Origin: Brachypterus glaber
Lineage: Eukaryota; Arthropoda; Insecta; Coleoptera; Kateretidae
NCBI GenBank assembly: GCA_958510825.1
Contig: OY294044.1
Coordinates: 87,218,895 to 87,282,894 of the forward strand
Direction of reading: 5' to 3'
DNA length: 64,000 nt
Shown here: in pieces, positions 1,633-57,297 of the stretch
Position numbering within the stretch: the first letter of the stretch is position 1
Layout: each line of letters begins with the position of its first letter
Position numbers and translations under genes: made by a program
The notes under the pieces: generated by a model
The model's database searches: none
Told to the model about the DNA's origin: nothing
Seen by the model: the letters and a program-made list of their open reading frames with translations, nothing else

Positions 1633-4600
1633 CTTTATAGAAATAAAAATATGAATATGAAATAATTTATTTGAAAAGGTCGTGACTTAACACGTTCGCG
1701 CCGACAGTATAACTTAACTATACAATTGTTTGTATTTTATTAACATCGTATATAATCCATATTTTGGGCCGAATGCAAAGACCCTGGTACACAGATGTAT
1801 ACAGGGTGAGTCAGAAGTAGATACATTAATTTGAGGAGGTGATTTTACAGGTTATTTAGAGTCTTTTGAACCCTATATTGCCTTATCCAAAAGTTATTAG
1901 TTTTGGAGATATTTGATTTTTTTAAGTTTTGGTTAAAAATCACGTCCAGGATTACATTTTTCAAAATTTCTCGAAAAGTATTAAGGATATTTAAACGATT
2001 CTTTTTTTATTAGTTAGTATACTTAGTGACACATGTCACGCAGTAATAGCTTTTCCAAAAAAGCTTTATAGGACGTCAGTAAAACACTATAAAATTATTT
2101 TTTATTCGATGAGTTTGACGGCATGTTAGGTTCATCATGATTTTATTTTTTAATTTTATTATACACTTTGCGTGCAAATTGTTTAAAAAACTTTCTTGAT
2201 TTATTACCTTTAAAATGATGTATAATATGTCAAGAAAAACTATTTTTTTTTGATAGGAAAATTCACATTTGTAAGACACATACAGGTTTTAGTTTACGCT
2301 AGTATTAACAATTCCAGACAGGTAGTACGTGAAATAATGAGGGGTTGATGTATCATTTGTGTATAAACAATTAAAGGTAATATTGAACTAATTACAGGTA
2401 ATATTAAACTAATTACAAATAATATTGAACCAATTACAGGTAATTTGTTCTGGGATTATACAAATTAATCTTTTAGGTATTAGAAATTTTGTATAAATAA
2501 AGGCGAAATAAAAGTTCTATATTGTCCCAACCCATTCAGATAAATGGCCAACCCATTAACTGGGAAAACCATGCCAAATACCTCGGTGTAATGTAATCTC
2601 CAAAAACCTGACGTGGGATCAGCACGTCAAAAACACCCTCCAAATAGCAAACTGCCGCCTCTCCAAACTCTACCCCTTAATAGGTAGAAAGAGTCCCCTA
2701 TCCATTAAAAACAAACTTCTTCTTTAAATTTAGATCACCCAAACCCCCTCATTTCAAACTTTCTAGATTACGATCACGAAATACACAACACTCACAAAAA
2801 GATCAAAAACGTCCTCAACCAGTAATGGTACCCACTAATACAGGACAGATGCATTCCCAGCATCAGTGAGCTAGTCTCACTCCTCACGCACATCCCTCCT
2901 CTCCCTATCCCATCCCTCCCCATCCCCCTCCCACCCACTCCCCAGCGCCGAATTATGACAGATGCTACTCGCATCAGTGAGCAGAGACTCACTCCCCCCT
3001 AAATTATGACAGATGCAACTCGCATCAGTGAGCATAGACTCACTGCCCCAACTTTCAATTCAGATCAAGTATTTTTTTTAGATAAATGAGCCATAGGCTG
3101 CGCCTGTCTCTTAAAGACCCAAACAAACTATTGATGATGATTCTATATTCATTCATGATGGCAACCTTTTCAAATGCTGAATACGCTGATATTATGTTTG
3201 TATATGGATTTTGTGATGGAAACGCTACCAGAGCTCGACGGGTTTATCAAGACGCGTGCCCAATGACAGGGTATTCAGTACGACATACCGTCGTATTGCT
3301 GAAACCGGTAATGTTATACCAAGACCACGCATTGGAGCTCCTGAACTTAATGTAAATGTAGATGAAGAAGTTCTAGAAAGATTTGAAGAAGATCCAACTA
3401 CCAGCACAAGAAGAGTGGCTTCTGAGTTAGGTTTATCACAAAGCAAGGTTGCACGTGTAATTAGACGGTCAGGCCAACATGCATTTCATTATACACCTGT
3501 CCAGGGTCTGGAGGAAGCTGATCCCCAACGCAGAATTAGCTTTTGCAGATATTTATTAAATGCTGACATTGATGATCGCAATTTCTTGTCTAGAATTTTG
3601 TGGACTGACGAGTCTAAATTTAGTAGAGAAGGTATTACTAACTTTCACAATTTGCACTTCTGGGCACAGGATAATCCACATATGACACGACAATCGAGTT
3701 TCCAAAGAAAATTTAGTGTAAATGTTTGGATGGGTGTACTTGGCCGTACATTGATCGGTCCTCACTTTTTACCAGACAACAGAATGGTGAAGCTTATGAG
3801 ACATTTTTGAATAATGTTTTGCCAGAATTATTGGATGATGTTCCATTAGAAAATAGGGTTGAAATGATTTTCCAACACGATGGATACCCAGCCCATTATA
3901 GGTTCGCTGTTCGTCAGTTTCTAAATGAGAGGTTTCCGAATCGTTGGATTGGTAGAGGGGGACCGATATTATGGCCACCAAGGAGCCCTGATTTAACACC
4001 TTTAGATTTCTATGTGTGGGGGCACATGAAAGACAGGGTCTATGCAGTTGAAATAACCAACAGAGACCAGCTAATTGAACGAATACAAGACGCGGCAATA
4101 CACTTAAGGGACAACTTGAGTAATAGAATTACACGCAGTGAAATAAAAAAAAGGGCACGATATTGCATAAGAAATCATGGCGGATACTTTGAGAATCTAC
4201 TGTAGGCTTTACCTTAGTCAGTTAAAAATATTTCAATAAATAAATGTTAACTTAACACTCTAGTATTTCACTCATTACCTGAAATTGTTAATCCCAGATT
4301 AAACTGAACCCCGTATGTGTCTTACAAATGTGACATTTCCTATCAAAAAAATTTAGTTTTTCTTGACATATTATACATCATTTTAAAGGTTATAAATCAA
4401 GGAAGTTTTTTAAACAATTTGCACGCAAAGTGTATAGTAAAATTTAAAAAAAAAATCATGATGAACTTAACATGTCGTCAAAATTAGCGAATAAAAATTA
4501 ATTTTATAGTGTTGTACTGACGTCCTATAAAGCTTTTTTGGAAAAGCTATTACTGCGTGACATGTGTCACTAAGTATACTAACTAATAAAAAAAGAATCG

Positions 4601-7600
4601 TTTAAATATCCTTAATATTTTTCGAGAAAATTTGAAAAATGTAATCCTGGACGTGATTTTTAACCAAAACTTAAAAAAATCAAATATCTCCAAAACTAAT
4701 AACTTTTGGATAAGGCAATATAGGGTTCAAAAGACTCTAAATAACCTGTACAATCATCTCCTCAAATTAATGTATCTACTTCTGACTCACCCTGTATAAA
4801 TTATATATGCAGCCTTAAACTCAATATCGTAGGTATATAACATCCAAACCAATAGAAACTGAATTAAACCGTGTACCACCGGTGGTGCACGTCGGCACGA
4901 ACGTGTTAAATACGCTAACTTTACCGGATTATAAATATGGAATTATAACAAGGTCCCTACCAAACTTTCACAATAAAATTCCAGAATTTCCAGGTAAAAA
5001 TTACATACGTTACAAATATATTAAACTCGCTCACGTTTGTTATTTTTTGCCCTTCAGAAGCATAAAAAAGTTAAAATATAAAATTAAAATAATGATAATA
5101 ATAATAAAAATAATAATTATAATAATAATAATAATAATAATAATAATTATTATTATTATAGCAGAATTTTACAGTTTACAATAGAATATCAGAAAGTACA
5201 GCCATAATTATGCTAAAAGCAAAAAAAAATTTACACATTTGAACGTGCTTAAAACATAAAAATTTCATATTAATAGAAATATACATATGTGCACATGTGG
5301 AGCAAAAATGAAAAAAGCGATAAACCCATGTCTCCAATTTTGATATATTAGCCGAAAACTTTTACAGCGATATCATAACATCGATATTAGCAGAAAACTT
5401 GTACAGCGTAATCTCAAAAAAAAAAAAATAAAAAATCCTAAAACTGGCGAAAACTGTTCATGGGTCATATAATTATCGGCTTTTGCTTGTATATGATGCG
5501 CTATATCAAGAAAGCGCTACAAAATTAGTGAGAATATGCAAAAAGTGGATTTATCGGTTTTTGCATGTTTCCTCCACATATGTACAAGTAGGTGAAATAA
5601 TTAGAAGAAAAAAAAAATTATTAGTAAGTACTATAAACTAAGCAGTATTAGAAGTAGTCAAGTTAATATATTTTTTTTCTTTATTATTTTTTCTCTTTTT
5701 TTCTAATTATTTATTTTTTTTAATAAAACAAATAGTTTGAATATATTTTTTTTATTCTGGGGGATGTGAGTAATTTGAAATTATTTTTTCATCCTTAAAT
5801 TGTATCTGACAATTCTAGCTTTTCTTGTTAGTAGTTTACATATACAGTGCGGTCCAAAAGTCACCCCCCCCCCTTGTAACTTTTGAACGAGTTGATATAT
5901 CGACTTCAAATTAAGAACTCTTAAATAAGACAACTTAAACTATCTTATAGCATATATTTGATATTTTCAGCTCTTAAAATGTGGGCAGGGGGACATTTTT
6001 TTTAAATGGAAAGGGGCGTCATGTGATACATCATTTTAAAGCTTATAAAATCCTCTAGTTAAACTAACATTTTTAATTTTTTTAAAAATGTTTTTTAAGG
6101 TTTTGATTTTTCAATTTTTTGTGCTAAAACATTCGATTTTTTAAGTTTTTTTTATAAATTTTTATTTATGTCACCTAAAATTAGTTTAAAAGTATAATTA
6201 ATATTTTTTTATGATAAAATTAGGCATTTTTAAAAAATTATTTGTTTTTTTATAGGAATTTTGATATTAATACCCATTTTCAACCCCATTTTAAACCCAA
6301 AAAAAAATATTTTTTAAATTTAAAAATATAGAGTTAAATGGATAATTTTATAACCTTTAAAATAATGTATTACATGACCCCTTTTCCATTTAAAAAAATG
6401 TGCCCCATGTCCCCCTGCCCACATTTTAAGAGCTGAAAGTATTAAATATATGCTAAAAGATAGTTTAAGTTGTCTTATTTAAAAGCTCCAAATTTGAAGT
6501 CGATATCTCAACTGGTTCAAAAGTTAAGAGGGAGGGGGTGACTTTTGGACCGCTCTGTATTTTAAACGCGCTTTTTTGAAATCGAAAATTCCAGATTTTT
6601 ATAAAAAAAATGCGAAATTCACGGTTTTTATCGAAAAAAATAACTCTAAATTCAAGAGTTTTCCATGTGGAAGTTCAAGTTTCGGTTTGGTGGAAATCCT
6701 ATATAATTATATATAAAAGGTGTTCACAAATTACATAATAAAAATATGAAATATACTTTTTACTTACTATAATCCTGGTTTGGTTAAAACAAATAGAAAT
6801 CTATGTTAAATGGCTTTCTACTATTAAATTAAAAAAAAAAGTAATGCATATATAAAAACATTAGTAATGTTTTAATTTATAACATGTTTTAAAGATAAGC
6901 AATTGTTTGTATTCTATATTTTTTTAAATTCTAAAAAATATACTTACTGGCCTCAGTTTCCCTTCTCTCAACTTCATCAAACACATCCATTACCAATTCT
7001 TCAAAGACGTGATTGGATAACTAAAAATTATTTAATATTTATATATTATACATATCTGATATAATATAATACTTATAACTTAACTAAGTCGTTAACAAAA
7101 GAATAATTTCCACTAAGTTAGTTATATACTACATGACTCCAATTTAAGCCAGCTATACTGCCGTAACTCAAAATTTGGTTATTCTGAGCTTTTAAACATT
7201 TTCTGAATTTTAAATCAGAACCAATATTTTTGGGTTTATCAAAGTTTTTATACTAAACGTTAAGAAAATGTTATTTAAGTGTAAAATTTTATTTATTTAT
7301 CAGTATGTAAGTGTAAAATTTTATTTATTTACATCAGTATGTAAATGTAAATGAGATACGTCTAATCAGCTAAGTAATAGCCAAGAAAAATGTAATTCCT
7401 TAGCAAATAAGACTTTAACTCAATTTATTAAAATAGAAAATATGACATTATGGTATGTTTCATCAAGCAAGAGAGTAAATTAAAAATCGCACAGTAAATA
7501 TTTTTACAACAGGTTTGAATAGTATATGTTTGTGTATAGAATATAGTTATGTTTTATGAAATAAACTACGCAGTATATTCGTACATCCAATATTCGAATC

Positions 7601-10600
7601 TGTTTTGAAAATATTCACTGTGCGATTTTTAATTTACTCTCTTGCTTGATGAAACAGACCATAGTATACGTCTATTGATATACGTCTTATTCGCTAAGAA
7701 ATTGCAGTTTTCTCGACAATTACTTAGATAATTAGACGTATATTAAATAGTTTATAAAATATATTATATAAATAATTTAATTTAATTATAATATAATATA
7801 TAATAATTTAATTTAATTATATACGGAATATTATTAGTTGGTTAAGATTTAGGTAAATAAATTCAACTCATTCACAAAAAATATATTTTTTTAAATAAGA
7901 AATTAATAACGGAACAAAATAAAATTCTTTCTGGTTCTCTTCAAGTTCAAAACTCAAATAATCGTAGACATCGTATAAAAATCACTTTCAAACTATGGTA
8001 AATCAGGAAACAGTTTACCATCGTTTTTGGTTATCACCATTATAAAATATAACAATTACTTAGCCAAAAAAACGTAACGTAACGTAGAAAAAAAACAAGT
8101 ACAAGTTATATACCATATATTTGCTGCTTCCAGGCTATTTTCTTAGGATTAGTTATCTTTGCTGATTCAGCATTCTGTACCTTCTATGTTATATTAAATT
8201 TATATTTTTTTATTCTGAATAGAGCTATAGAACAATCAAGTCTATTAGATTCATTTTTGTCCCAAGTTTTACAGTTTTGAAATAAAATAATCTTTTTTTA
8301 AAAAAGGAAAATTCTAATATCGGATTTTAACTGGCGCAGTCGGTAGGATTTTCCAAACGGAAACGACAAAAATCGCGGATCTGGTGCGTTATAACGCCTT
8401 GTTGGAAAATCGAACTTTTGTGAACCTGTGAAATTTGGGAGACTGGAGGAGGACAACATTGCCAAACCCAGCCTAGTTAAGTGATGAAGAAAATAATATT
8501 AATGTAAGTCCTTTTGATAAATTTCCTTATTTTTCCATATCCATAATTTTCATTATATATTTTATTGACATATTATTGATCGAGTATTATTGATCACATA
8601 TTGAATTTTATCCGAAGTAAAGGTATAAGAATGATTAAATGTTAGTTGGTTATAATATTCTATAAAAATAATAAAGTAAATAATTATGCAGTACCCGTAT
8701 TAAGCTTATCATTCGTACGTGACTTTTAAAGAATTTGTTTTGTTGTTGAAAATAACCAAGTTTTAATCGTGAATAATATAGTAAGTAATTTAATATTTTA
8801 ACTCGTCTGTCTGTTTCTGTGTCTTATCTTTATATTTTTTATCTTTTATAAAGCGAAAAGTTTATCAGGTATTTATTTCAATTCGATTCAAAAAATTCTC
8901 TTAGTGTAATAGTAAATAATATATTTATTTTGTAATATTTTCTTGTTTTAAATAAAATGGCAGTAGGAAATATAAACTACCAACTTTTAAAATTATATGT
9001 GGATACAATTCCTCAATTTGAAGGAAATCCACATACTTTAGGTATTTTTATTGATAGTTGTGAAACAGTAATTGCTCAGTTTGCGGATGACGAGAATCCC
9101 GTTCTAAACACATATATCCTTAGAGCCATTATCGGAAAGTTGTCGGGGAGAGCGTTAAGCCTAATAGGTTCCCGGATAGAACTGAGAACCTGGGATGAAA
9201 TTAAATCCTCCCTGCAACTAAGTTTCGGAGACCAACGGGATATAGACTGTTTAGTCCAGGACTTGGTATCCTTAAAACCGTTCAGAAACGAAACTCCTTA
9301 TAAATTTGGCATGAGATGCCAAGATGTAAGAAGTCTGGTAATTTCAAAACTAAATACGCTAAATATCCCTCGCGAGGACAAATTAATTAAAGTCGAAATT
9401 TATAATAAACAATCTTTGAGTACTTTTATTTACGGTTTGTCGGGGTCAAATCCAAAACAATATAAGACTCAGAAATCCTGACAGTCTGGAACAGGCAATG
9501 TCGTATTTAATAGAAGAAGAAAACTTCTCATATGGTCAGAATAGAAGTAGCAATATAAATTTCCAACGTGATTTTAACCCCTCTCAAAGAATAACGCCCT
9601 TTTCAAACCCCAGAGATGATACACCACAAAATTATAGAAATTTTAATAATGTAGAACAAAATTTTAGAAATAACGCACAACAAAATAATTTCAGAAACCA
9701 ACAGAAACCAAATTTTAACCACGCAGGACAAAATTTCCCAAATAATTACCCGCGTCAAAATTTACAAAATTTTAGACCAAATTTCCAAAATAATTTCCCA
9801 AGAAGAAACTTCCAAAATAATTACTCCCAAAGACAAAACACTCCCCAACAATTTCAAAATAACTACCCCCAAAGGCAAAATACTCCTCAACAATATCAAA
9901 ATAACTTTCCTAGACAAAATCAGCAAAATTTTAACTCACATAACTTAAATCCCCAACGTTTTTACCAGCAAAATTTTAATCCGAATAGAAATATAAATAC
10001 TTTTAAACCGGAACCAATGGATACGAGTTCGGGCAACACTAGAATAAACTTTACAAATGCTGGAATTTCTAATGAAAACCAGAATTTTAACGAAACCCTT
10101 GAAATAAACAACGAAAACCCAAATTATATAAATAACCAACATGATAACTCAAATTTTGAAAATAATGTTGTAAGCCAAAATCAAAATGTAAATTTTCAAT
10201 TAGCCGAATTACAAAACCACCCATTTTGATAAATATAAATTTTGACAGGTCTTGTTTACCTCATATTTACATAGAAGAATTAAATGCAAATTTTCTTATA
10301 GATACTGGTAGTTCTCGTAGTTTAATAGATCCTAAGTTAGCTCATAAGTTTTACAAAAGTTATATACATAATGAACAATTTAATATACAAACCGCTCACA
10401 GTATCACATTTCACAATGAGGTAATGCAAATACCTATTTTTAAAGAATTTAATAAAAATTTAGTTCATAAGTTCTACTTGTTTAAATTTAGCGATAAGTA
10501 CGAAGGCATTATAGGAATAGATTTAATTAAAAAACTTAACGGACATATTGATATGGAATCAAATTTATTAATTACTTCTCAAACTAAAATACCGATAATC

Positions 10601-13600
10601 TTCGAAAAAGAAAATAGCTATAAAAATAATACACCCCCATTATTTGAAAATCAAAAAATATTTATACCCCCTAAAACAGGAAAAGTCGTATCTATTCCCG
10701 TAAATATGAAAGAAGGAGTAGGAATATTAAAATATCTAAAATATGGGAAAAATGTAGAATCCCCCGAAGCCTTAGTAACTGTAAAAAATTACTGTGCTAT
10801 TACTACTATTATAAATTCAAGTATGAATGGCAAACAGTTATTAATTAAAAACCCTTTTAGTATAGAACCTGTAACTGAAAATGAAATAAACTTTTTTGAA
10901 AATTTTGAAACTGAACCTATAACTATGTCAGAACAAAATCACGATAACTCTCTCAAAGATAATTTAAATAATTTAAGGTTAGAACATTGCAACTTAGAAG
11001 AAAAAGCAGCCATTGAAAAACTTTGCTATGAATACCGCGACATATTTTATCTTGAAAATACCCCGTTAACATTTACTAATCAAATAAGACATAAAATAAG
11101 ACTGACCGACGAAACTCCAATTTTCACTAAATCCTATAGGTACCCTGAAGTACATAAGGAGGAAGTGAGAAACCAAATAGACAAAATGCTACAACAAGGC
11201 ATCATTCAGCCATCTTGCTCGCCATTTTCTAGCCCCATTTGGGTTGTACCAAAGAAAATGGATGCATCGGGTAAGAAAAAATGGCGAATAGTAATAGATT
11301 ATCGTAGACTTAATGAAAAGACAATTGACGACAAATACCCTTTACCCAATATTACCGATATATTAGATAAGCTAGGAAGAAGTTTATATTTTACTACCCT
11401 TGATCTTGCAAATGGATTTCACCAAATAGAAATGCACCCCGACGACGTACAAAAAACTGCTTTTTCAACAGAACGAGGACATTTTGAATATTTAAGAATG
11501 CCATTTGGCCTCAAAAATGCCCCGCGAACTTTTGAAAGAATTATGGACAATATTCTTAGAGGACTGACGAACGAAACATGTTTAGTATACTTAGACGATA
11601 TAGTTATTTTTAGCACATCCCTTACAGAACACATAGAACGACTGAGACAAGTATTCGAACGCTTACGGCAGTCAAACTTCAAACTTCAGTTAGACAAATC
11701 CGAGTTTTTGAGAAAAGAAGTCAACTTTTTAGGTCATGTTATTACTCCAGAAGGAGTTAAGCCAAATGAAGATAAAATAATCGCAATAAAACAATTCCCC
11801 ATTCCCACAACTCAAAAGGAAATTAAAAGCTTTTTAGGCCTTGTAGGTTACTACAGAAAATTCATTAAAGACTTTGCCAAAATAACTAAACCTTTGACAG
11901 TGTGTTTAAAGAAAAATGCTCATGTAACCCATACTAAAGAATTTGTAGACGCTTTTGATTTGTGTAAAACATTACTAGTAAATGCACCCATACTCCAATA
12001 CCCTGATTTCACTAAACCCTTCATTCTTACCAGCGATGCTTCAAATTTTGCCCTTGGTTCAGTCCTCTCTCAAGGAACTGTAGGTTCCGACAAACCAATT
12101 GCGTTCGCCTCACGAACTTTAAATGAGACCGAAACAAAATATAGTACAATTGAAAAGGAATTGCTTTCCATAGTTTGGGCCTGTAAATATTTTCGCCCCT
12201 ATCTTTATGGGCGTAAGTTTACTATTTATACAGACCATCGACCCCTTGTTTGGCTTTTTAACCTCAAGGAACCACATTCCAAATTAGTTCGATGGAGGTT
12301 AAAATTAGAAGAATTTGACTACGATATAGTCTACAAAAAAGGTTCACTTAATACGAACGCTGATGCACTATCAAGAATCAAAATAAACACTATGATACAA
12401 AATTTCGAATCCCAAAATATTATTAACGACATTTTAGAAAACAATTTAAACATTAAAAATGATAAAGTAGATATAAAATACGAAAATATATTTAACCCTG
12501 GAAATAAAACTTCCCTTGCCCATTGCGTTTCACTAGATTTCAAAATGGCTAAAGGAATTGCAGTAGAATTTAGAGATAGATTTCAATCAAAAAAAAAATT
12601 AAAAAACCAACACAAAAATATTGGTGAAGTAGCTTATATTAAATTTAACGATAGAAGAATTTACTACCTAATTACTAAAGAAAAGTTTTCTGACAAACCC
12701 ACTTACAAAACCGTTATTTCAGCCCTAAAAAATTTAAAATTATTAGGTACCAAATTAAACGAAACTCATATCTCTATGCCAAAAATAGCCTCAGGACTAG
12801 ATCGGCTTGATTGGAATATCATATTTAATTTAATAAAGTATATTTTTCAAAATTCTAAAATTAAAATTACTATATATTTTGAAGAAAATAAAATAGACTG
12901 TAATGCCCTAGAAAATGCATCAATAATCAATAACCCTGGTGATATAGACTTTGAAATTGACAGTTTTCTAGACCAAGAACGTAACCTTGATCAAACAGAA
13001 GAAATTTCAAAAATCATACAAGATATAGAACGCGATACGCAACCTAAAATTAAGATACTTCAAGATATCCAAATTAGACCACCCCAAGACACAGTACATT
13101 CCCACGATTCTGATACAATTAATGAAGCTATACCTATACTAGATGAAATAATAAATAATAAACCTGTCCAAATATACGTAAAACCCAATGCACATAACGA
13201 AATTAAAACAGAATCTAATCATTTTAAGAATTTGAAAATCTTATATGTTACCATACCCAAAACCGATGAAAAATTAGTTTTAAAATTTTTAAAAGAGTAT
13301 ACAAGTACAAGTACTACATTTTACATTTATTTCTTTGATAAAGATCATTATAAAATCTTCAACGATATTTACATGAAACATTTTTATCGAACTGGACTTA
13401 AAATAATAAATTGTACTAAATTAGTAAATACCATTAGAGACAAAGAAGAACAAATAAATATAATTAAATATCAACATGAAGGCAAAACTAATCACAGAGG
13501 TATTAATGAGACATGTGAAAGACTTAAAAGAAATTATTATTGGCCGGGCATGAAAAATGACGTGACAGAATATATAAATACGTGCGATATTTGTCAATTA

Positions 13601-16600
13601 GCTAAATATTCTAGACAACCCGCTTACACCCCTTTGGTCTTAACGGAAACTCCTACTAAACCTTTCGAAATCCTACATATTGATTCACTTAAATTCGATA
13701 AACAAACGTACCTATGTATAATAGATAAATTTTCCAAATTCGCACAAGCCATTCCCACGATAAGTACACTAGCAACCGAATCCTGTAACGCCCTTTTACA
13801 GTTTTTCACTTATTTCGGATTACCGACGAAAATCGTTAGCGATAACGGAACTGAATTCAAAAACGAAACGGTAAAGGATATTTTGAGATTACATAATATT
13901 AGAATACATTTTACCACACCCGGACACCACGAATCAAATTCACCAATAGAACGTTTTCACTCAACCATTATTGAACACCTAAGAATTTTAAAAATTAAAC
14001 ACCCTAAAGACCCTTATACAGACCTAATGAAATATGCAATTATAGCTTACAATAGTTCAATTCATTCTTCTACAAATTTCACACCCTATGAACTTGTTCT
14101 TGGACACACAGACTCACGTGACCCCTTAGATCTTTTAAATACAACTTATTATACAGACTACGCATATAACCATAAAGAAAAAGTAAAATCACTCTACAAT
14201 AGTATAGCGGAAAAAAGTAAATTAAATAAGGAAAAAATAATTCAAAGTAGAAACACAAAAGGTCCTGAACAAACCGATTTTATTTTAGGTAATATTGTGT
14301 ATAAGTATGCTCATGAAAGGAATAAAAAAGAAAATAAATTTATCGGTCCTTATAAACTAATAGAATTTTTAGAAAATAATAAGGTAATAATTAAAAATTT
14401 AAGCAATAATAAATTAGAAACTATACACATAAAAGAACTGAAAAAACCTTCCGTTGTTGCAGACTCTACGCCTACACCCTCGTGTTCGCAGACTCCAACT
14501 CAAGATTTCATGACTTAAATGACAACCCTGGACTACTAACCTTAAAATTAGGAAATGCACAACTGAAAATCGACCACTGGACGTTCATTAAAATATTTGA
14601 CCTAGAAAATGTTATTAACGAATTTCGAACCCTTCAATCCCACTTTTCCGACTTAAAATATGCGATTAAAAATAGTCCTACTAAGACTCAATATGAGACA
14701 GAATTGTATAACTCATATCACTTAATTGATACTTTGGAAAATAATATTAAAACTCAAACGAATCAATTAATCCCCACAAATAATATTTACCCTAATAATA
14801 AAATTAAAAGAGGCTTAATAAATAGTTTAGGTTATGCATTTAAATTCATTACTGGAAATTTAGATGACAATGACGCAATAAAATACGATAATGCCATAAC
14901 CATGATTTCAAAAAATCAAGATAAAATTAAAACATTAGTTAAAGACCAAATTACATTACTAGAAAACTCAATTCAAACCTTTAATGAAAGTACTCAAACT
15001 TTAACTCATAATCAATTAATATTGGAATCTAAAATTAACGAAATTGAATCTGTAATAAAAGACGTAAGTGTCAAAGATATAGGCAATCATTATTTTACTA
15101 TGATTAATATGATCATTTCACAAATAATTAATGCTTTTCAGATTATCAATAATGTTCTTAAAGAAATTGAAGTAATTGTTACTTTTTCTAAATTAAACAC
15201 ATTTCATAATTCAATGATTGAACCTACTGAACTCTTACGCGAAATTGAGTCAATCAGTAAACATTTAGTAAGAACTAAACTACCATTTGAACCAAAACTT
15301 GAAAATATTTTACTATTCGAAAAACTTATTAACATTAAAAGCTATAATAAAAATAACCAAATAATATTTATACTAGAAATACCTATAGTAGAAAATGAAA
15401 ATTATAACTATTATCACCTATATCCGTTACCTACACTAGAAAATAACTCCTTCTGAACCATATTACCCCTTTCCAAATACCTTACATTGAACGAAAACTA
15501 CTACATGATGTTTAACGAAAAATGTAAAGAAATCACACCAGAAGAATACATTTGCGAAGAAACCAACCCCATTCAAATTACAGAAGAAAATCTACCCTGT
15601 GAAGTCTCCCTCTTAAAATTCAATAAGAATAATTCTGCCTGTCACCAAACTCCAGTTGAGTTCAAAAACTTGAAAATTCAAAAAACAGAAAAAAACAATT
15701 GGATCGTAGTTACACCCAAAAAAGTAGTTGCTGTTCAAAAGTGCGGTTCAATTAAAGACAATTACCCCTTATTTGGTACTTACATTTTGGAACTTAATAA
15801 TAATTGTGAGGTACTAATAGACAATATAAACATTCAAAGTTTTAAAACCTACAAAAGTACATTTAGAAATATTGTTCTACCAAATCTAAATTTAAGTGGT
15901 AGTTCCAGTAAAACTTCAAAAATAAACTTTCAACCCTTAAAACTGGATACTGTAAGTTTAGACGAACTGAAAAACATTCGAAGTGTTTTAGACTTACAAA
16001 AAACAGACTTATTTGACATCCCTTCTATACACTATAACAATATTAGTGTTTGGACGATCGTCTCCTACATATTTATCGCTTTATTAGCTTTCTGCTTTGC
16101 TTCATACATTTACTACAAGAAATGTTATATTAAGAATAGGAATATAACCCTAGATGTGGAAACCCCGTTAAAAAACTCGAGGAACCAGAGTCAAGGACCA
16201 GCATCACCAAAAAGTGAAAATCCTGTTGTTACCCCCAGGATTTTCGTCTAAGGATGGAGGAGTTATATACCATATATTTGCTGCTTCCAGGCTATTTTCT
16301 TAGGATTAGTTATCTTTGCTGATTCAGCATTCTGTACCTTCTATGTTATATTAAATTTATATTTTTTTATTCTGAATAGAGCTATAGAACAATCAAGTCT
16401 ATTAGATTCATTTTTGTCCCAAGTTTTACAGTTTTGAAATAAAATAATCTTTTTTTAAAAAAGGAAAATCCTAATATCGGATTTTAACTTACATAATTAT
16501 CTTAAGTAATCTAGAACTAGCTTAGAGATACGTCTTTTTTGATAAGGAAAACGGGTTACGTCTATATCGCTTAGGTTTTTTAACAATTTTTGAGATGCGG

Positions 16601-25145: not shown

Positions 25146-28100
25146 GTATAAAAACCATTTAAGTTATTAATTTAGTTTGGTTGAGAATGCTTTGAGCCAT
25201 GGGTTTCTCAAACTACTCAGAATTGTTTTTGGTAAAAAGTCAAGTAGGGGTAAGGGAGTAAAAACTATTAGTTATTTTGTAATAGCTTGTCTTTTAGTTG
25301 AAAAAAAACTGCTAGTAATAAAATAATACCTACTTTCTGCTATAGGCCTAGATTCATTATTTTTTTAACATTTTTTTTTCCACAACCTGATTTACCAAAA
25401 ACAATCCCAGCCTAGAACTTTGAATAATCAACCTATGGTCCGAATTTGAAGTGGTGCTGGTTTTTCGGTCTGTCTGTTCCGAAAATTTGTGACCAGAATA
25501 ACTTGAGAAAGTAAAATTTACAATAACCCATCCAAAGTTCTTGGCTGAGATTGTTTTGGTAGGTAAATGGCGGGGTGGGGTAAGAGGGTCAAAACGACTA
25601 AAAACAAACAATTTTTTCAAAAACATTTAGTTTTTTTCTAAGATAATTTTTTTCGAAAATTCTTTTTGACAAATGTTTTTTGGAAAAACTTTGTTCAAAC
25701 TGTAACATATTATGTTTCCTATCCAAAGTTCTCAGCTAGGATTGTTTCAGTAAATATCGGAGTGGGGTAATAGGGTCAAAAATGTTTGTTTTTATAAAAA
25801 GAAACTTTTTTTTTGAAAATTTTTTTAGGAAAAAAAACTTTTTTTGTTTAAACTCTGAGAGTAAGTATTTAATAACTTACAATAACTTTTTTTTGCATAA
25901 ACTCTAGGGGAAAGTATTCTTTTGTTAGAAGCAGTGTTTCTTTTTTAAAAAGCCTTTTTCGATTATTTTAATTCTTTAAGTCAAGAACGATTTGAGCCGA
26001 TTTGGCTAAAAAAAAATTGAAAATAATATGTTCAAAATTTAACATATTATGTTTCCTGTTCAAAGTTCTCAGATGATTGTTTTGGTAAATATCGGAATGG
26101 GGTAATAGGGTCAAAATGGGCAAAAACAAATTTTTTCAAAAACACTTTTTTCAAAAGTATTTCGATTTTATAAAAATGAACTTCCTTTTGAAATTTCTAT
26201 TTGAAAATGTTTTTTGGAAAAAAAAAGTCCAAACCTTTTTTGATTTTTTAAAAAATTTTAACTCAAGAACGTTTTGAGCTAAAAAAAATTGAAAATAATA
26301 TGTTCAAAATTTAACAAATTATGTTTCCTATCCAAAGTCCTCGGCTGGAATTTTGGTAAATATCGGGGTGGGGTAAGAGGGTCAAAACAATTTATTTCAA
26401 AAACATTTTTTTTTCAAAAATATTTCGTTTTTCTAAAAAGTAACTTATTTTAAAATTCTATTTGAAAATGATTTTTGGAAAAAAAAAACTTTTTTTGTCT
26501 AAACTCTGGGGGAAAGTATTCTTTTATTAGCAGCAATGTTTTTTTTAAGAGAGCTTTATTGATTTTTTTTTTTTAATTGTTTGCTAACCTTTGTATTTTT
26601 CTTTTAGATATGGACGTTATTTCTGATGTTTTTCACCCTACAGTGCCAAGTGTCATGGACCATATTTGGGGATTTTTTGCTGGAGTAAGACAAAGAGGAG
26701 TACAATCGACAGAAAAGATGTTACGTAAAGGCTCTATGATAACTGGCATAGGAGAACTAGTTTACACAAATGATGGTAATTTGAGGTTACAACCGCCATC
26801 TAGTGGAGCACCATTTTATTTAACTAATATGCAGGTTACGTCGTTAGTAAAGAAGTTAGAGGGTTCTAAACGAAATTATAGGTATTGTATATCCTAAAAT
26901 ATACTTTTATTATATTTAACGTTATAGTCCGGAAGCCCGCGTCCAATAGAATTTTTTTATTACCTCACCGTTGAGACTTTGTATATGTGCTCTTATATCC
27001 AGTCAAACAACTTCTTACATATGAAAATTCTCGGTATGGGGGCGTTTTTTTTTGGGACCAACCCTTAACTTCAGGGTGTCCGACAACGGTTTGGACCGAA
27101 ATTTTTTTTTGGTTACCACTTGATTTTAAATATTTTTATTAAACGATCCTGAAAAAATCAGCTGTGAGGTGCTAAATGTTATGACATCATAACATTTAGC
27201 ACCTCACAAGATCGTATAATAAACATATTTAAAATCAAGTGGCCACCTTGTCTGACAAAAATTTTCTGGTAATACCGTTGTCAGACGCCCTAAACTTAAG
27301 GGTTGGTCCCAAAAAAAAACCCCCGCTACCGAGAATTTTCTTATGTTACATAAGTTATGTAAGAAGTTGTTTGACTGGACATAAAAAACACATATACAAA
27401 GTCTCAACCTTGAGGTAATAAAAAAAATTATACTGGGCGTGGGCTTCCGGACTATTACGTTTGTAACGCCAGTTTTGTTTTTTGGGAATTTTTCATTATT
27501 TTTTTGTGAAATAAAAAAAAACTTACATGGTGATACTAATATTAAGCACACAAATAGTTTGGACTCCCTTAAGGACACTAGATCCTTACCCTTACTTGAC
27601 CCCGATTTTTATTAAAAATAATCCAAGCCAAGAACTCAAAGCGTTGTTCAGTTATTTTCAACACACTGCAGATTTTTTTTCGCATACCAATTACCTCCGC
27701 CTATGGGCCTACGAAATTGTTCTTACTACGTTTTCGCGAAAGAAGTTCTGTCCAAGACTGTCTGTCTGGGATTATTAGACTTCGATAACTAGAACGCTTT
27801 GAGCTAAAGACTTCAAATTTCAAACATAAGTTTAAAAAAATATGAAACGGGTACCCTTTCTAGACGGGTGGAAAAATGAGAACATTTATAAAATAACATA
27901 TCAAATTGACTTTGGCTTCTTTTCATTTAATCCAAACAAACTTGATTTAATGTCAAAAGTGAAGTTTAATGTAAAAAAATATCAAAATAAATTTAAACGT
28001 ATATCTCGGAAATTAATAGTCATACGAAAAAAATTATTGCATGTTTTTTTTTTTGTAGGGAATTAAAATTAAACATTATTTTTATTTCTGTACATTTTTT

Positions 28101-31100
28101 TGTCCTACTATAAATAATAAGATATCGCTAAAAATTATAGCTTTTGATCGTTTGGACTTTTTGGCGCACTTGCTCTTGTTAACCATATTTAATGTGACGC
28201 AAATCTTGAATCTTTTGGTGAAAGAATTTTTTAAATCGGACATTCTGTTAAAAGGTTATAAGGTTCACATACAGACAGAAAGACAGAGACAGACATTTTT
28301 TAACACCCACTTTTTTCACATTTTCTCGACGTTTCATGACATTGCAAAAAAATGCAAAAAAATTGTTGATTTTTCCGTCGGTTTCCATCCTTAAAAAAAA
28401 TATTTTATTATTATTATTACTTTCCCCAAGGAAAGTCTTGCGCAAAAACTTAGTCTTGCTCAAGTGCTTAGTCTTACGTTGGTAAAAAACAAAAATTATG
28501 GCTGATAATTTACATAAAACAAATACGTCTGTAGGTCTGCCTGTCCGGTAAATTTGTCACAACGATAACTCGAGAACGCATTGCAATGCGTTCTCATGAC
28601 CTAAAGACTTTCAATTTGGACCATAGGTTTCTTATTCCAAGTACTAGGCTGGGATTATTTTTGGTAAAAATCGGGGTGGGGTAAGGGAATAAAATGAAGT
28701 AATATTTCCTAAAAAAAAATATTTTTTTTAATGTACCTTTTTTTTGTTTCCCTGAGCCTAGGCCTACAGAGTAAAGTAATCTTTTGTTGGCAGCAGTATT
28801 TTTTCAAAAAAAAAAATTAAAAAAAAATAATTTTTTTTCTAGGTTACTATGTTTATTTTTTGGAGGTGTTGGTTTAATAATAGGTGGTTTAGTAATAAGA
28901 AAATATTGGAAGAATAAGAAAAATATAATTGAAGACGCGAAACGAAAAAGGCTGATCGAAGCTTCGAGGCGGGAAAGACGCAGACAAATGAGAGAAGATA
29001 ATTTACCGGAAAACCAGCTTTGCGTTGTTTGTAAATGTAATCCGATAGAAGTAAGTATAATAATTAGGTATGTTCTGTTATAAGCAGACCACGGAATAAA
29101 TAAGCCAAATTGAAAGATACAGGATCGCGTACTTTTGCCATATAGATAACTATAAAAAACGATAGAATTCGTAATTTAGGTAACACGGCAGGCTATAGGG
29201 ATAGGATACTTGTTCCAATAATAATAATTCAATTAAACAGAATTTACCAAAATTCCAATTATTTTAAATCTGGTACTGGTATATACGACCAATGTCATAT
29301 TTATTCCGGGGTGTGGTTTAACCAGGTTATAAGCCCAAATTTATAATTTTCAAAAAAGTTCACCCTATATCAATTTCGCAATTAATAATCGAGAATTTTT
29401 GGATCAAAAAAGCCTTACAAATGCCAAAAACTTTATTATTAATGATTCTTTTTTATTGAACCATATGAAAATATAAAAAATTCGCTACAGGCTCATCCTC
29501 TAAATTAGTTCCTATATTAATTACATAATATAATATAAAATTACATAATATATTAATATATTACTGCTTTGTAACCAGTCGTAACCAGGTTTAACTCACA
29601 GATACATACTTTATTCTATTTTTCATCATGTACAAGAAAGTCTTTGTAGAGTTTTTTTTTATTTGAAAGAACGCTTAAGAAAGAGTTTTATTAAACAACT
29701 TAATAAAAAAAGAGAGGTTTGGTTTTTCGTGAATATCTCGAAAAATTAATTATAATTAATAGTGATTTTTAAGAAAAAAATAGTTTCTTAAAAATAAAAT
29801 TATTGCTTAAAATCGCTCTTGTTAATTAACAATTTATTTTTGCAAATAAATAATAATATTAAGGAGCCATTTTTTTTTAATCATTATTTCTATTGTTCTT
29901 TCGTATTCCGAAAAAATTTTTTTTTTATTTTTTGTGTAGAAAACAATTTGTTATAAATAAATTTTGGCGTTATATATTTTTTTAATTGTAAAAAATAAAA
30001 CAATAATAACCTTGTGTTGTTTTTTGGTGATTTTTTTTTCTATTCTTTTTAGAATTTTGAATATTTTCGTCTTTTTGACTTTACCGTTCGCACCTGATTT
30101 TTATCTTTGTAATTAATATAACTTATAAACTATAGGAGATACGAAATTAAGCTTCCAATCGAAGCTCTAACTCAATTATTTATTTAATTTTTTGCAATTA
30201 TTTATAAAAATACTTCGAGAATTCTTTTTTGTAGGCTTTAAAAGTCAAACACATTCGTCAACAAGTGGGTGAAACGATACTCGAAAACGAAAAATTTTGA
30301 CGACTTACCAGATCGTGGCTCAACAGGAAAGGTGTCGGCTAAGCACGAAAAAACGATTTTAAACATGTTTTCGCAGAATCCTCAATTAACCCTGCGCCAA
30401 GGGGCAAAAAAACTGATGCAAAAAGTTTATTTTTTTGTTTGTTTGTTTGTTTATTTGTTTAACCTCGAACTATTCTACTTAATTAAGCATCCCCTAAGTC
30501 CAGGACTTGTGTGGGCTAGTAGTAGAGGGAACCACCGGCTTATACTGACTTTCGAACCAGTTTCTAGGGATTGTCCGTTTCACTTATCGCCTTCGCCAAA
30601 TTTCAATTATTAATTCACTGAAAAAGGCAAATCGGCGCCAGTGAGAATCGAACTCACGATAGTAGACTTGCTATACATACGCGCTAGCCACTACGCTATG
30701 CCTCCCATAAAGGTTTAGATATATCACATGAAACAATTTATACTCATCCCCAGGCTCACGACTTAAAGTTTGGGGGTGTCTTTCGGAAAAAGTTTTTGGA
30801 TTTTTATTTCTCTTTACGTACAACTTGAACGCTGAAAAAATGATCGAGATTTACAAAAGGCTCTAATGCCGACTGCCAAACGTTGGTATAGCGATAAAAA
30901 TAAGCAGTGTATCCTCCAAGAGGACAACGACCCCAAACATAGGAGCAAGTTGTGTAGCCAGTGGAAAAGGACATCCGACATCATGCTGGATTGGCCGTCC
31001 CAATCGCCCGACGCAAACCCCATTGAGAATATGTGGTCATTCATTAAGCACAAGTTTCGCGGAAAAAAGGTATACACATTAAAGCGAAAACGAAAAATTC

Positions 31101-50169: not shown

Positions 50170-51637
50170 ATGGCTGAAAATATCGACGCCACCATGGCAA
50201 ACTTCCCAAACCAACAAATGGCAGACTACTTCCAAGATCAAATCAAGGCCCAGACAGAGCACTATAAAACCCAGGCTGAATCACATAAAAATCAGCTCGA
50301 ATTCCTTCAGACACAACTAGCCATCGCAAACGAGACCATCAATGGACTCCGAGAGGAAATTTCCCGCCTCTCCTCTCAAATAGGGACACTCTTATCCCAA
50401 AAAACCCAAACTCCCACCCAAGAGCTCTCCGATGCCCCCGATCATTTCGAAACGGACATGTCCGTAGAAGAGACTGATTCGGACTCAGTCCGGTCCCCCC
50501 TTGCCTCCCCGCGCAAGCGCTTAAACCGGCGCAGAAGGAAACACAAATTAAATTCAGACCTAGAAGAAAAACCCGCTAAGACCCAAAAAACCCCCGGCAA
50601 AGCGACTGCCTCCGAAGAAGTCGCTAACCCCTCCGGCTCAGGGCCCCAACCCCCCGTTACGGCCCCTGTAAACCCAAAAACCCAAGCTACTGGCCCAGGA
50701 ACCCCCCCCCGACCAGGAAGCCCACAAAACCCCCAAAATCCCCCCCATCATCATTCGAGCCCCTGAAAAATGGCTAGCCTTGTCCCGCCACTTCAACTCC
50801 CAAAAAGTAAACATCCTCCACGCGAAAAATACCTCTGAAGGAGTGCAAATTCGCACCCAGACCAGTGACGACTTCCGCAAAGTCACTAGGCACTTAGACA
50901 CCGAAAAAATTCCGTATCATAGTTTTACCCTCCCGGAGGACAAGGCAATCCACGCCGTAATCCGGGGAATCCCCACCCAGATAGACGTCGCAGACGTCCA
51001 AGCCGCTCTTATCGAGCGTGGCTACCTCCCCACGTCAGTCGCGAGAATGACGCGCACTAAAGACAAGACCCCCATGCCCCTGATCCTAGTCATCCTTCCC
51101 AAGGTGACAGGACAACAGCACCCCATATTTAAAGAGACTAGGCTTCTACACCTAGTCATAAAGGTCGAAAGCCAGACCTATAAACCCAAATTCAGGCAAT
51201 GTCACAAATGCCAACTCTTCGGCCACTCCCAGGCCAATTGCAACGCCCCGGCCAAATGCGTAAAATGCGCACAAGACCACCACACAACAAAGTGTGAAAA
51301 ACCCCGTCACACGGACGCAAAATGCGCCAACTGCCTAGGCCCCCACACGGCAAACTATCATAAATGCCCCAAACACCCATCAAACATCGCTCCAACCCGT
51401 ACAAGGGTCATACCCCCAACCCAAAAATTCACCCCGGGCATCTCCTACGCCCAAAAGGCAACCAACGCCGCCACCCCACAACAACCCAAGGCGGCCCCAG
51501 GTCCCAGTGCAAATCCCCCCAATATTTTTGATCAATCCCAAATTTCAAAAATCCACACCTTCATGCAAGAATTCGCCAGCTTCATGCAGGCTTTTGGCTC
51601 CCTTCAATTACCCAATCTAGGCCCCCAAAATGTCTAG
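50170..51637 (+). pseudogene. LINE ORF1 (nucleic-acid-binding gag-like protein), one frameshift
   Basis: RNA-binding chaperone of Jockey-type LINEs. It starts at ATG 50170 with a coiled-coil-like stretch (SHKNQLEFLQTQLAIANETI) and a Pro-rich linker. The frame ends at 50764-50766; the continuation runs one base further on. The break falls in A/C homopolymers near 50727-50748. The second part carries a PRE_C2HC-like region and three zinc knuckles: CHKCQLFGHSQANC, CVKCAQDHHTTKC and CANCLGPHTANYHKC. It ends at TAG 51635-51637, overlapping ORF2 by 8 bases (ATGTCTAG). Confidence 0.88.
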
Positions 51638-54377
51638 ACAAACAAAACCCAGAGCCCTTAAAATAGTCACCTGGAACGCTGATAGCCTCAATTCAAAAAA
51701 ACCGGAACTCATAGAATTTCTACACGAAAATCAAATAGATATAGCCCTCATCCAAGAGACTGGTCTTAAACCACATCATAGGGGTACCATACCCAACTAT
51801 TCCTGCTACCGTAACGATAGACTCCAGGACCGCAAAGGAGGCACAGCAATCTATATCAAAAAACACATATCTCACGATCTTCTTTATGCGCCCCCCACAC
51901 AAAGCGATCAAGTCGAAACTACCTCCATATTCGTCAACATGCACGACAATTCCAAATTCAGGATCGTGTCCCTCTACAAACCCCCAAATAAGGAGGTCAG
52001 ACCCGCCGACTTCGAAGGCTACTTTAACGACAATCATCCAACAATCCTAGCCGGAGACTTGAATTGCAAACACGCCCTTTGGCACTCTAGAACAACTACG
52101 GCCAACGGCCGTAGGCTTTACGAAATATTACAACGTAACCATATAATGGTTACCGCACCCGATTCCCCAACCCACTATGGCCACGGCCTTCCTGATATCC
52201 TTGACATCGTTTTGTATAAAAACACGACACTAAACATTAACATCGAACTAAGACACGAACTAAGCTCCGACCACCTTCCAATCATTATCACGGCAGGAGG
52301 CATACCAACCGCAAATCACACCAAAAAAACCGTTTACAACTTCTCCTATATATCCGAACTCCTAGAAAGCAACACCAAAATCAATTCAATAAATTCCGTC
52401 CAAGAACTAGATATTGCAATAACCACCCTCACCAATACCATAAAATCCGCAATGGACAGCGCCAAATTAATCAAAAAAGTAGATATCCAAAACCCACAGG
52501 ACCTTCCCCGAGATCTCAAAGACTTAATCAGAGAGAAAAACCGACTTCTTCGTCGTGCACGCACCCTCCAAGACCCCCATATTAAACGCGAAGCAAACAG
52601 TCTTACCCAGGAAGTCAAAGACCGACTAAACGTACTAGCAAATTCCCGCTGGGAGGGAAAAATAAAGTCACTCAACCCCCAGGATAGATCACTTTGGAGA
52701 ATGGCCAAAACCCTATCCCTCGACCACCAACGAGGCATGCCCCCAATTCACGGCGAAAGAGGAGTCGTCTACTCCACCCCCGAAAAAGCCGAAGCATTTG
52801 CTGACGCAATGCGGAAACAATTTCAACCAAACCCTCCAATCCCCCCCGACTCCGACTCCGAATCAGAGACCGACTCCGAGCCCGACTCGGACGACGAGAA
52901 CTACGAGCAACTCATGCATGAAAGAGACATAAACCACATCTATAATAGAGTCACTAACCAAGTCGAAAACGACATTATCACCCCCACATCCCCCGAGGAA
53001 ATCAAACGCATCATCAAAAATCTCCCAAAAAGGAAAGCCCCCGGTCCCGACCAAATACCGAATAAAATTCTTAAAATACTCCCCCGGAAAACCATTATGG
53101 AAATCGTTAACATTGTTAACGCAATGCTCAGACTGCGCCACTTTCCAAAGCCCTGGAAAAACGCAGACGTAATAGTAATCAAAAAACCCGGACAAAATCC
53201 AACTTTTGCTGAAAGCTACCGCCCCATAAGCCTCCTTTCCTCCCTAGGCAAAATAGCCGAGAAAGTCATACTAACCAGACTTCAAACTCTAGTTGAAGAA
53301 CTAAATCTCCTTCCAAATGAGCAATTCGGCTTCCGAAGCAGACACTCCACAGTCCACCAGGTAGCTCGCCTGGTAGACTCTGTAACGGACGGACTAAATA
53401 GGCGCGAAGCCGCGGGACTGATCCTCCTGGACATCGCAAAAGCCTTCGATAAGGTTTGGCACAAAGGTCTTGTAGCCAAACTCCACTTTCTCGGCCTCCC
53501 CCCAGGCATCACCAAACTCATAGCCTCCTTCCTCAAAGGCAGAGATTTTCAGATAAAAATAGGCGACTGTAAGTCCAACACCCGCCGCATCAGAGCTGGC
53601 GTTCCACAAGGTTCCCCACTATCCCCCCTTCTGTACAACCTCTTTACGGCAGATATTCCAAAAACACAGGGCGCTGAACTAGCCCTGTTCGCCGATGACA
53701 CCGGCATCCTAGCAAAAGCCAGAAACCCCCAGCGCATCCATATCGCCCTCCAGCGCCAAATGGATGCCCTAATCAAATGGTTCTCCAAATGGAAAATCAA
53801 AGTAAACGCCAATAAAACCAAAGGCATCCTAATCTCTAGGATTAGAAGAGGCCCACCCCAACCCATTCAGATAAATGGCCAACCCATTAACTGGGAAAAC
53901 CATGCCAAATACCTCGGCATTACAATCTCCAAAAACTTGACGTGGGATCAGCACGTCAAAAACACCCTCCAAATAGCAAATTGCCGCCTCTCCAAACTCT
54001 ACCCCTTAATAGGCAGAAAGAGTCCCCTATCCATTAAAAACAAACTTCTTCTCTACAACCAAACCCTAAAGCCGGTACTTCTTTACGGAGCCCCAGCCTG
54101 GAATAAAATCACCCTTAACAAAGCGCTCTCAGCAAAACTTCAGGCCTTCCAAAACAAGGCACTCAGAATATGCCTCGATGCCCCCTGGTTCATGAGGAAC
54201 AACCAGATACACAGAGATCTCGAAATGCCCCTCCTAAAAACGGAAATCATCCGCTACAGCACGTCTTTTATACAAGACAATTTAGATCACCCAAACCCCC
54301 TCATTTCAAACTTTCTAGATTACGATCATGAAATACACAACACTCACAAAAAGATCAAAAACGTCCTCAACCAGTAA
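51630..54377 (+). CDS. LINE ORF2: AP-type endonuclease plus reverse transcriptase
   Basis: 915 aa, intact. N-terminal APE-like endonuclease: ALKIVTWNADSLNSKK, ALIQETGLK, AGDLNCKHALWHS, LSSDHLP. Then the reverse transcriptase: APGPDQIPNKIL, SYRPISLLSSLGKIAEKVI, LLDIAKAFDKVWH, GVPQGSPLSPLLYNLF, and the catalytic FADD at residues 687-690. It has no RNase H, as in Jockey elements. The ATG at 51630 is inside the ORF1 stop overlap, suggesting reinitiation after ORF1. It appears able to encode active enzyme. Confidence 0.95.
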   Translation: MSRQTKPRALKIVTWNADSLNSKKPELIEFLHENQIDIALIQETGLKPHHRGTIPNYSCYRNDRLQDRKGGTAIYIKKHISHDLLYAPPTQSDQVETTSIFVNMHDNSKFRIVSLYKPPNKEVRPADFEGYFNDNHPTILAGDLNCKHALWHSRTTTANGRRLYEILQRNHIMVTAPDSPTHYGHGLPDILDIVLYKNTTLNINIELRHELSSDHLPIIITAGGIPTANHTKKTVYNFSYISELLESNTKINSINSVQELDIAITTLTNTIKSAMDSAKLIKKVDIQNPQDLPRDLKDLIREKNRLLRRARTLQDPHIKREANSLTQEVKDRLNVLANSRWEGKIKSLNPQDRSLWRMAKTLSLDHQRGMPPIHGERGVVYSTPEKAEAFADAMRKQFQPNPPIPPDSDSESETDSEPDSDDENYEQLMHERDINHIYNRVTNQVENDIITPTSPEEIKRIIKNLPKRKAPGPDQIPNKILKILPRKTIMEIVNIVNAMLRLRHFPKPWKNADVIVIKKPGQNPTFAESYRPISLLSSLGKIAEKVILTRLQTLVEELNLLPNEQFGFRSRHSTVHQVARLVDSVTDGLNRREAAGLILLDIAKAFDKVWHKGLVAKLHFLGLPPGITKLIASFLKGRDFQIKIGDCKSNTRRIRAGVPQGSPLSPLLYNLFTADIPKTQGAELALFADDTGILAKARNPQRIHIALQRQMDALIKWFSKWKIKVNANKTKGILISRIRRGPPQPIQINGQPINWENHAKYLGITISKNLTWDQHVKNTLQIANCRLSKLYPLIGRKSPLSIKNKLLLYNQTLKPVLLYGAPAWNKITLNKALSAKLQAFQNKALRICLDAPWFMRNNQIHRDLEMPLLKTEIIRYSTSFIQDNLDHPNPLISNFLDYDHEIHNTHKKIKNVLNQ

Positions 54378-54702
54378 TGGTACCCACTAATACAGGACAG
54401 ATGCATTCCCAGCATCAGTGAGATAGTCTCACTCCTCCCGCACATCCCTCCTCTCCCTATCACATCCCTCCCCATCCCCCTCCCACCCACTCCACAGCGC
54501 CAAATTATGACAGATGCAACTCGCATCAGTGAGCAGAGACTCACTCCCCCCCAAATTATGACAGATGCAACTCGCATCAGTGAGCATAGACTCACTGCCC
54601 CAAATTTCAATTCAGAATAAGTATTTTTTTAGATAAATGAGCCATAGGCTGCGCCTGTCTCTTAAAGACCCAAACAAACTATTGATGATGAATTTTTCAC
54701 AA

Positions 54703-57045: not shown

Positions 57046-57077
<32 letters not shown>
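56321..57077. repeat. F2 hairpin end (inverted) and microsatellite
   Basis: 56313-56400 is an inverted F2 end (TACTATTCACAGCGCCTGCG then ACGTCCTAGACAAACAAATT). 56880-56935 again has the CGCCTCTGAAAAA block. (AAT)n lies at 57047-57077. Confidence 0.65.
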
Positions 57078-57080
<3 letters not shown>

Positions 57081-57297
57081 AGCTGAAGTTTGCAACGTTT
57101 TTTTGCATCGAAAATATTATATTAAAGCACTTATTCCAGAAAACGTTTTTAGCGCACTTGTACTTTAGAAAACTCGCCACAAGCGGCTTGTTTTCTAAGC
57201 TTGTACTCGTGCGCTAAAAACGTATGTTATGAAACTAGTACTTTAATATACTATTTGAATTTTCGTTGCAAAAAAACGTTGCAAACTTCAGCTTCAT
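57078..57297. mobile_element. Foldback MITE inserted in an AAT microsatellite
   Basis: ATGAAGCTGAAGTTTGCAAC at the left and GTTGCAAACTTCAGCTTCAT at the right, with inverted arms of about 105 bp. The interior TTTTTAGCGCAC...TGCGCTAAAAACG is related to repeat R-A (848-1331). Confidence 0.85.

Follow-up and report, generated by a model that had tools for sequence, protein, structure and literature searches.

A macrodomain in the pol polyprotein of an errantivirus-type element

The window analysed here, 64,000 nucleotides of the Brachypterus glaber genome (contig OY294044.1, positions 87,218,895 to 87,282,894 of the forward strand), carries at 8104-16489 a retroelement with gag, pol and a Baculo_F-type env between 229-bp long terminal repeats (LTRs). 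A preliminary description made from the DNA alone had placed a TARG1/OARD1-type macrodomain in an uninterrupted pol frame, between RNase H and the integrase zinc motif, and both the open frame and the location were borne out, the latter by Pfam matches to the two neighbours (Table 1). The stretch proposed for the domain, 12479-12880, encodes 134 residues in the pol frame, is free of stops and, among the PDB sequences, gives a match to human TARG1/OARD1 (4j5r and others) with E=5e-30 over its residues 9-133. The only other PDB sequences with E up to 1 are two Bacteroides proteins (0.82 and 0.97), and RNA-virus macrodomains are absent from the matches within that limit. A profile search had been expected to return a macro domain nearest to OARD1; TARG1 is the nearest relative, but the general Macro model of Pfam stays below its threshold (E=0.033; 14.6 bits, where 22 are required), and the DarG model of NCBIfam gives 1.3e-7 and 31.2 bits, its cut-off being 250.

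Structure comparison revealed that the predicted fold is that of a macrodomain, closest to human TARG1, with 39-42% identity in the aligned structures. The structural match covers model residues 8-148, corresponding to window positions 12461-12883, so that the span first proposed is slightly too short. A chance run of motifs is ruled out by the E value and the predicted fold, and the domain is, by both, a TARG1-type macrodomain. Cellular TARG1/OARD1 (C6orf130, of the ALC1-like macrodomain hydrolases) forms a protein by itself, some 150 residues long, whereas here the domain lies inside a polyprotein. In the AlphaFold model of the region from RNase H to integrase, the macrodomain and a pre-integrase domain are confident units, separated by residues with a predicted local distance difference test (pLDDT) score under 50. 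The macrodomain is thus likely a bead on a flexible string, which could act with or without proteolytic release.

Other macrodomains are more distant. Those of positive-strand RNA viruses, such as alphavirus nsP3, are 10-13% identical to the Pol domain, compared with 39% for TARG1, and in the structural comparison TARG1, DarG and Poa1p all come before the alphavirus chains; moreover, these viruses do not reverse transcribe, unlike the present element. The antitoxin DarG, a bacterial ALC1-like macrodomain as is SCO6735, shares 18-19% identity with the Pol domain and, as described in PMC9411070, lacks the Asp of the catalytic pair. Bacterial TARG1-like loci (n=57) are 28-39% identical to the window domain.

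TARG1-like domains also occur in phages, 70 of 50,697 phage records giving a match at E up to 1. The matching phages (records H1-H12) include Bacillus phage G, Lactobacillus phage LP65 and Fusobacterium phage Fnu1, and one metagenomic phage record holds a TARG1-like domain with 46.7% identity over 91% of the query.

The protease-RT-RNase H-integrase order (RT, reverse transcriptase), the LTRs with a TACA duplication and the F-type env, here interrupted by a stop, identify the pol, judged from its sequence, as otherwise of errantivirus type (Metaviridae, env-carrying Ty3/Gypsy), and Lampyris noctiluca errantivirus 1 is among its listed pol relatives. The LTRs differ at 1 of 229 positions, which agrees with the earlier view of a young copy, but the copy looks disrupted: it is recent, yet probably not autonomous, because gag coding is split over two frames and env contains the stop at 15454-15456. 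The probable primer binding site may resemble that for a tRNA-Ser primer. The pre-integrase domain is confidently folded just N-terminal of the integrase zinc motif; a piece spanning it (13106-13444) has a BLAST match in 112 of 120 listed Pol relatives and no Pfam match above cut-off, and it may be the N-terminal extension domain of the integrase.

Table 1. Features of the retroelement in window coordinates; E values are from Pfam
Feature	Position	Strand	Remark
Target-site duplication TACA, 5' side	8100..8103		Read from flanks
5' LTR	8104..8332	+	229-bp direct repeat
Probable primer binding site	8332..8346	+	Position directly after 5' LTR
gag, first part	8957..9481	+	Stop-terminated; coding apparently continues in another frame; weak Retrotrans_gag match, E=0.12, below cut-off
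gag, second part	9498..10229	+	Different frame; no Pfam match
pol	10226..14518	+	Open frame, 1430 codons
Protease region	10262..10549	+	RVP E=0.0048, Asp_protease_2 E=0.0002, both below cut-off
Reverse transcriptase	11246..11743	+	RVT_1 E=6e-40
RNase H	12005..12316	+	RT_RNaseH E=1e-39
TARG1/OARD1-type macrodomain	12461..12883	+	
Gly codon	12554..12556	+	Counterpart of TARG1 Gly43 (ADP-ribose pocket)
K818 codon	12677..12679	+	Counterpart of catalytic Lys84
G857 codon	12794..12796	+	Counterpart of TARG1 Gly123
D859 codon	12800..12802	+	Counterpart of catalytic Asp125
Pre-integrase domain, common to most relatives	13136..13420	+	Folded in AlphaFold model; BLAST
Integrase zinc motif H2C2	13457..13609	+	Integrase_H2C2 E=1.3e-17
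Integrase core	13655..13927	+	rve E=5e-11
env, first part	14482..15456	+	To in-frame stop; Baculo_F E=3.6e-21
env, remainder	15487..16251	+	Same frame beyond stop; no Pfam match on its own
3' LTR	16261..16489	+	229-bp direct repeat
Target-site duplication TACA, 3' side	16490..16493		Read from flanks

Carriers of the domain among related Pol proteins

In a protein search with the pol piece 11099-13699, scoring covered the 7971 candidates with the most words in common with it; 3016 proteins reached an E of 1e-10 or lower, and 120 of these were listed. A profile built from 27 database relatives of TARG1, with the window excluded, detects the domain in eight of these 120 (E 4.5e-34 to 2.7e-56) and gives no match in the reversed sequences. 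The insertion looked for in other Pol proteins is thus present, with a conserved active site, and its restriction to one copy is ruled out by the eight carriers. Seven of them (P0038, P0049, P0071, P0073, P0089, P0111 and P0145) hold the domain between RNase H and integrase, and in P0120 it lies C-terminal in Pol. The distance from RNase H to integrase is 283-396 residues in these seven, 355 in the window and 197 in P0120, against 146-258 (median 190) in the 112 listed non-carriers.

The three carriers with organism names are from Harmonia axyridis (P0089) and Rhynchophorus ferrugineus (P0111), together with Lampyris noctiluca errantivirus 1 (P0145). All three are from beetles, which is uninformative as to a restriction to beetles, given that beetles, or the symbiont record of a beetle, are the source of five of the six organism-named listed proteins (two of the five we take to be beetles). 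IMG/VR, scanned with the domain and with pieces of RT and of integrase, yielded no relatives. The glow-worm element shares the Pol order and holds the same type of domain in the same slot; its 2020 description gives RT/RNase H and integrase matches for that open reading frame (ORF), and in the main text of that paper no word starts with 'macro', 'ADP-rib' or 'OARD1' (PMC7093385).

Conservation of the active site

The catalytic residues pointed out earlier, K818 and D859, were numbered rightly, and counterparts of Lys84 and Asp125 are present in all nine Pol domains (the window and the eight carriers). The window domain also retains Gly43, Ile44 and Gly123 of the ADP-ribose pocket. Ten residues, in TARG1 numbering H32, C33, D37, G43, A45, K84, K90, P91, G123 and D125, are identical in all nine, although the domains share a mutual identity of only 29-56% (mean 42%). 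Among the gap-free columns, 17 of 140 show no variation across the nine. In the database relatives, 26 columns reach a conservation of 90% or more; 24 of these are kept by the window and 18 to 25 by the nine Pol domains, while columns outside the 26 average 33% identity.

Insertion points and history of the domain

Trees were computed from RT-RNase H for 34 rows, consisting of the carriers and their nearest non-carriers, and as a quick RT tree for 121 rows. On the former, the carriers need eight changes, at least seven of which are forced by starred branches; on the latter, starred branches force at least five, with 47 of 118 inner branches open. On the 34 rows, a single RT clade of all nine carriers is rejected by the approximately unbiased (AU) test (p = 9.3e-56), as is one without P0145 and P0120 (6.6e-6). 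Carriers stand beside relatives devoid of the macrodomain, P0038 pairing with P0063 (100/99) and P0120 with P0124 (99/96), and the window falling with P0033, P0034 and P0036 (97/90). P0089 and P0111 pair with each other (92/64, not starred), so that some carriers may share one gain, and since the changes may also be losses, how often the domain was gained cannot be read from the trees.

The flanks point to several places of insertion. In the window and P0038, the domain lies between the end of RNase H (ADALSRI) and a NALE..S.IN.PGDI-like motif, which in P0036 and P0063 directly follows the RNase H end. The insert of P0073 stands between NETD and F.YME.FN motifs that are nearly adjacent in P0091, that of P0071 lies beyond an F.YME.FN-like motif, and that of P0120 comes after the normal end of Pol as seen in P0124; P0116 yielded no motif and was left out. 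Read by eye, these comparisons suggest four insertion points in Pol, within a variable linker.

The large domain tree comprised nine Pol, 27 database and 13 bacterial rows, the last being what was left of 17 loci chosen from the 57 after four with a stop in the stretch as cut were dropped; insect host TARG1 was not among the rows, and P0029 (82 residues) was excluded from alignments and trees. Eight of the nine Pol domains cluster in the domain trees (84/73 and 86/86, neither starred), and the Pol domains share their side of the tree with the vertebrate OARD1 rows, 12 of the 13 bacterial rows being separated from them (97/76). One origin of the nine domains is neither rejected (p=0.377) nor demonstrated, as they stand together in 6% and 10% of bootstrap trees. 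Grouping the window with P0038 and P0049 has p=0.023 in the domain tree test; with the nine RT rows, the window and P0089 together are not rejected (p=0.21), and P0038 and P0049 already pair with 57/0. That the domain and RT histories conflict is no more than suggested, and there are long branches, P0089 in the RT tree and P0145 in the domain tree.

Transfer between elements, repeated capture and much loss are thus not told apart by the trees, and the donor can be placed only as a TARG1 of the group with the vertebrate OARD1 rows. The earlier statement that the element captured a host OARD1-like gene stands as far as this grouping, but is too simple, because eight of 120 listed relatives also carry the domain, scattered over the RT tree and inserted at several points.

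The domain could instead be a functionless passenger, a host gene fragment copied by chance into a permissive Pol linker. This would suit its place in a variable linker, its absence from most listed relatives and the observation that carriers cluster no more closely than labels do after shuffling (93 of 500 shuffles as low for the 121 rows, 279 of 500 for the 34). Nevertheless, the residues of the active site are unchanged across nine diverged domains whose other columns average only 33% identity, and the same type of domain recurs at several places in Pol, and we regard a passenger as very improbable.

Proposed function

We propose that the Pol macrodomain is an accessory ADP-ribosyl hydrolase, packaged with RT, which would clear ADP-ribose from the RNA, complementary DNA (cDNA) or proteins of the element, and give this reading a probability of about 0.5. 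From the aligned residues and the modelled fold, a hydrolase function as such appears probable. Activity would follow the mechanism of TARG1, an attack of Lys84 on the ribose assisted by Asp125; the use of this pair by TARG1 is described in PMC9411070 and in PMC7050489, which prints Glu125. As part of Pol, the domain would enter particles with RT and genomic RNA, as expected from retroviral biology. Its main substrate may be base-linked ADP-ribose on uracil of the genomic RNA or thymine of single-stranded cDNA, the removal of which would keep host ADP-ribosylation from blocking copying. Uracil-linked ADP-ribose is reported to be hydrolysed by human TARG1 and by fly Targ1 and Targ3 (PMC13036486), and thymine-linked ADP-ribose is likewise given as a TARG1 substrate (PMC9411070; PMC13036486).

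A functional counterpart may be seen in the dUTPase of non-primate lentiviruses, an accessory enzyme of nucleic-acid housekeeping of similar size in the same Pol slot; the dUTPases of beta-retroviruses are described as sitting elsewhere in the polyprotein (PMC4531489). The likeness is one of place and an analogy only, for the chemistry differs. No homology to dUTPase was found: within an E limit of 1, Macro is the sole Pfam family hit by the isolated domain and none is hit by the piece 12383-13450, and the fold is that of a macrodomain, from which the dUTPase fold differs. Since the position in Pol varies while membership of Pol is constant, and since the lentiviral slot holds a dUTPase, we consider nucleic acid the likelier substrate of the macrodomain, albeit tentatively.

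Several points weigh against this proposal. The group does not need the domain, since 112 of the 120 listed relatives are without it. Arg126, invariant in the database relatives, is Arg in only three of the nine Pol domains, Ile44 is replaced by Leu in P0038 alone, and Phe48 is replaced in P0038 and P0145. Selection was judged from protein sequences only, as a substitute for the ratio of nonsynonymous to synonymous substitution (dN/dS), and the database favours open frames. All nine Pol domains are basic (isoelectric point 8.4-9.8), a property shared with many of the 27 database relatives, so that charge lends no extra support to nucleic-acid binding. No insect enzyme is known to us that would attach ADP-ribose to the nucleic acid of retroelements. 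Besides, TARG1 also acts on ADP-ribose linked to Asp and Glu of proteins, according to PMC7050489.

The last point leads to a different target for the same hydrolase, namely ADP-ribose on acidic residues of Gag, integrase or PARP-modified host factors at integration gaps, comparable to the RNA-virus macrodomains that are thought to counter host PARPs. TARG1 is reported to hydrolyse mono-ADP-ribosylated proteins, to be able to release whole chains and to interact with PARP1 (PMC7050489); the catalytic pair is retained throughout the nine domains, and the domain adjoins integrase in seven of the eight listed carriers. However, nothing observed is specific to a protein substrate and the position in Pol varies, and we hold a protein target to be unlikely.

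In other Ty3/Gypsy elements, integrase is tethered by chromodomains, and the macrodomain might similarly be a reader rather than an eraser, binding ADP-ribosylated chromatin and tethering integrase to target sites. Its position N-terminal to integrase in the seven carriers and C-terminal in P0120 and the flexible linkers on either side in the AlphaFold model would be compatible with such a role, but a pure reader needs no catalytic pair, and Lys84 and Asp125 persist in nine of nine domains at 29-56% mutual identity. A reader therefore seems improbable.

Other features in the window

Inverted copies of about 255 bp at 30454-30707 and 60161-60421 are 95.8% identical and each contain a tRNA-like stretch (60163-60235, called tRNA-Ala, and 30633-30705 on the other strand); the pair is probably a tRNA-derived short interspersed element (SINE) rather than tRNA genes. 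A non-LTR retrotransposon at 50170-55765 has ORFs at 50780-51637 and 51630-54377 (apparently for endonuclease and RT), with its 3' part repeated at 54703-55765 (89% identity) and related fragments at 2526-3140. Two overlapping ORFs at 3256-4205 match helix-turn-helix and DDE_3 models, all below curated cut-offs, and are probably a decayed transposase of Tc1/mariner type. Large imperfect palindromes at 26918-27461, 7356-7741 and 57065-57309, with 75-79% match to their own reverse complement, are possibly terminal-inverted-repeat elements.

Significance

Viral macrodomains are known from RNA viruses, and we found none described for reverse-transcribing elements. Open-licence full text yielded no relevant description of a macrodomain or TARG1 in retroelements, and word searches within the text of PMC12992720, PMC13172572 and PMC7093385 met no mention of such a domain; the principal recent survey of errantiviruses, Chary and Hayashi 2025 (eLife 108449), from which the 289 errantivirus baits cited in PMC13172572 derive, may mention it. 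Thus, although macrodomains in viruses and accessory enzymes in Pol each have precedents, the recurrent union of the two in reverse-transcribing elements, with the active site preserved, appears to be undescribed.

We further speculate, although we think it rather doubtful, that errantiviruses gained the TARG1 cassette repeatedly, at at least four places in Pol, because their hosts ADP-ribosylate uracil or thymine of element RNA or cDNA, which the cassette would reverse inside the particle. If true, there would be an ADP-ribose arms race over the nucleic acid of animal retroelements, parallel to that of DarT/DarG against phages. The recurrence of TARG1 with an intact site in scattered errantivirus-type Pols suggests that ADP-ribosylation exerts a pressure on the endogenous retroviruses of insects.
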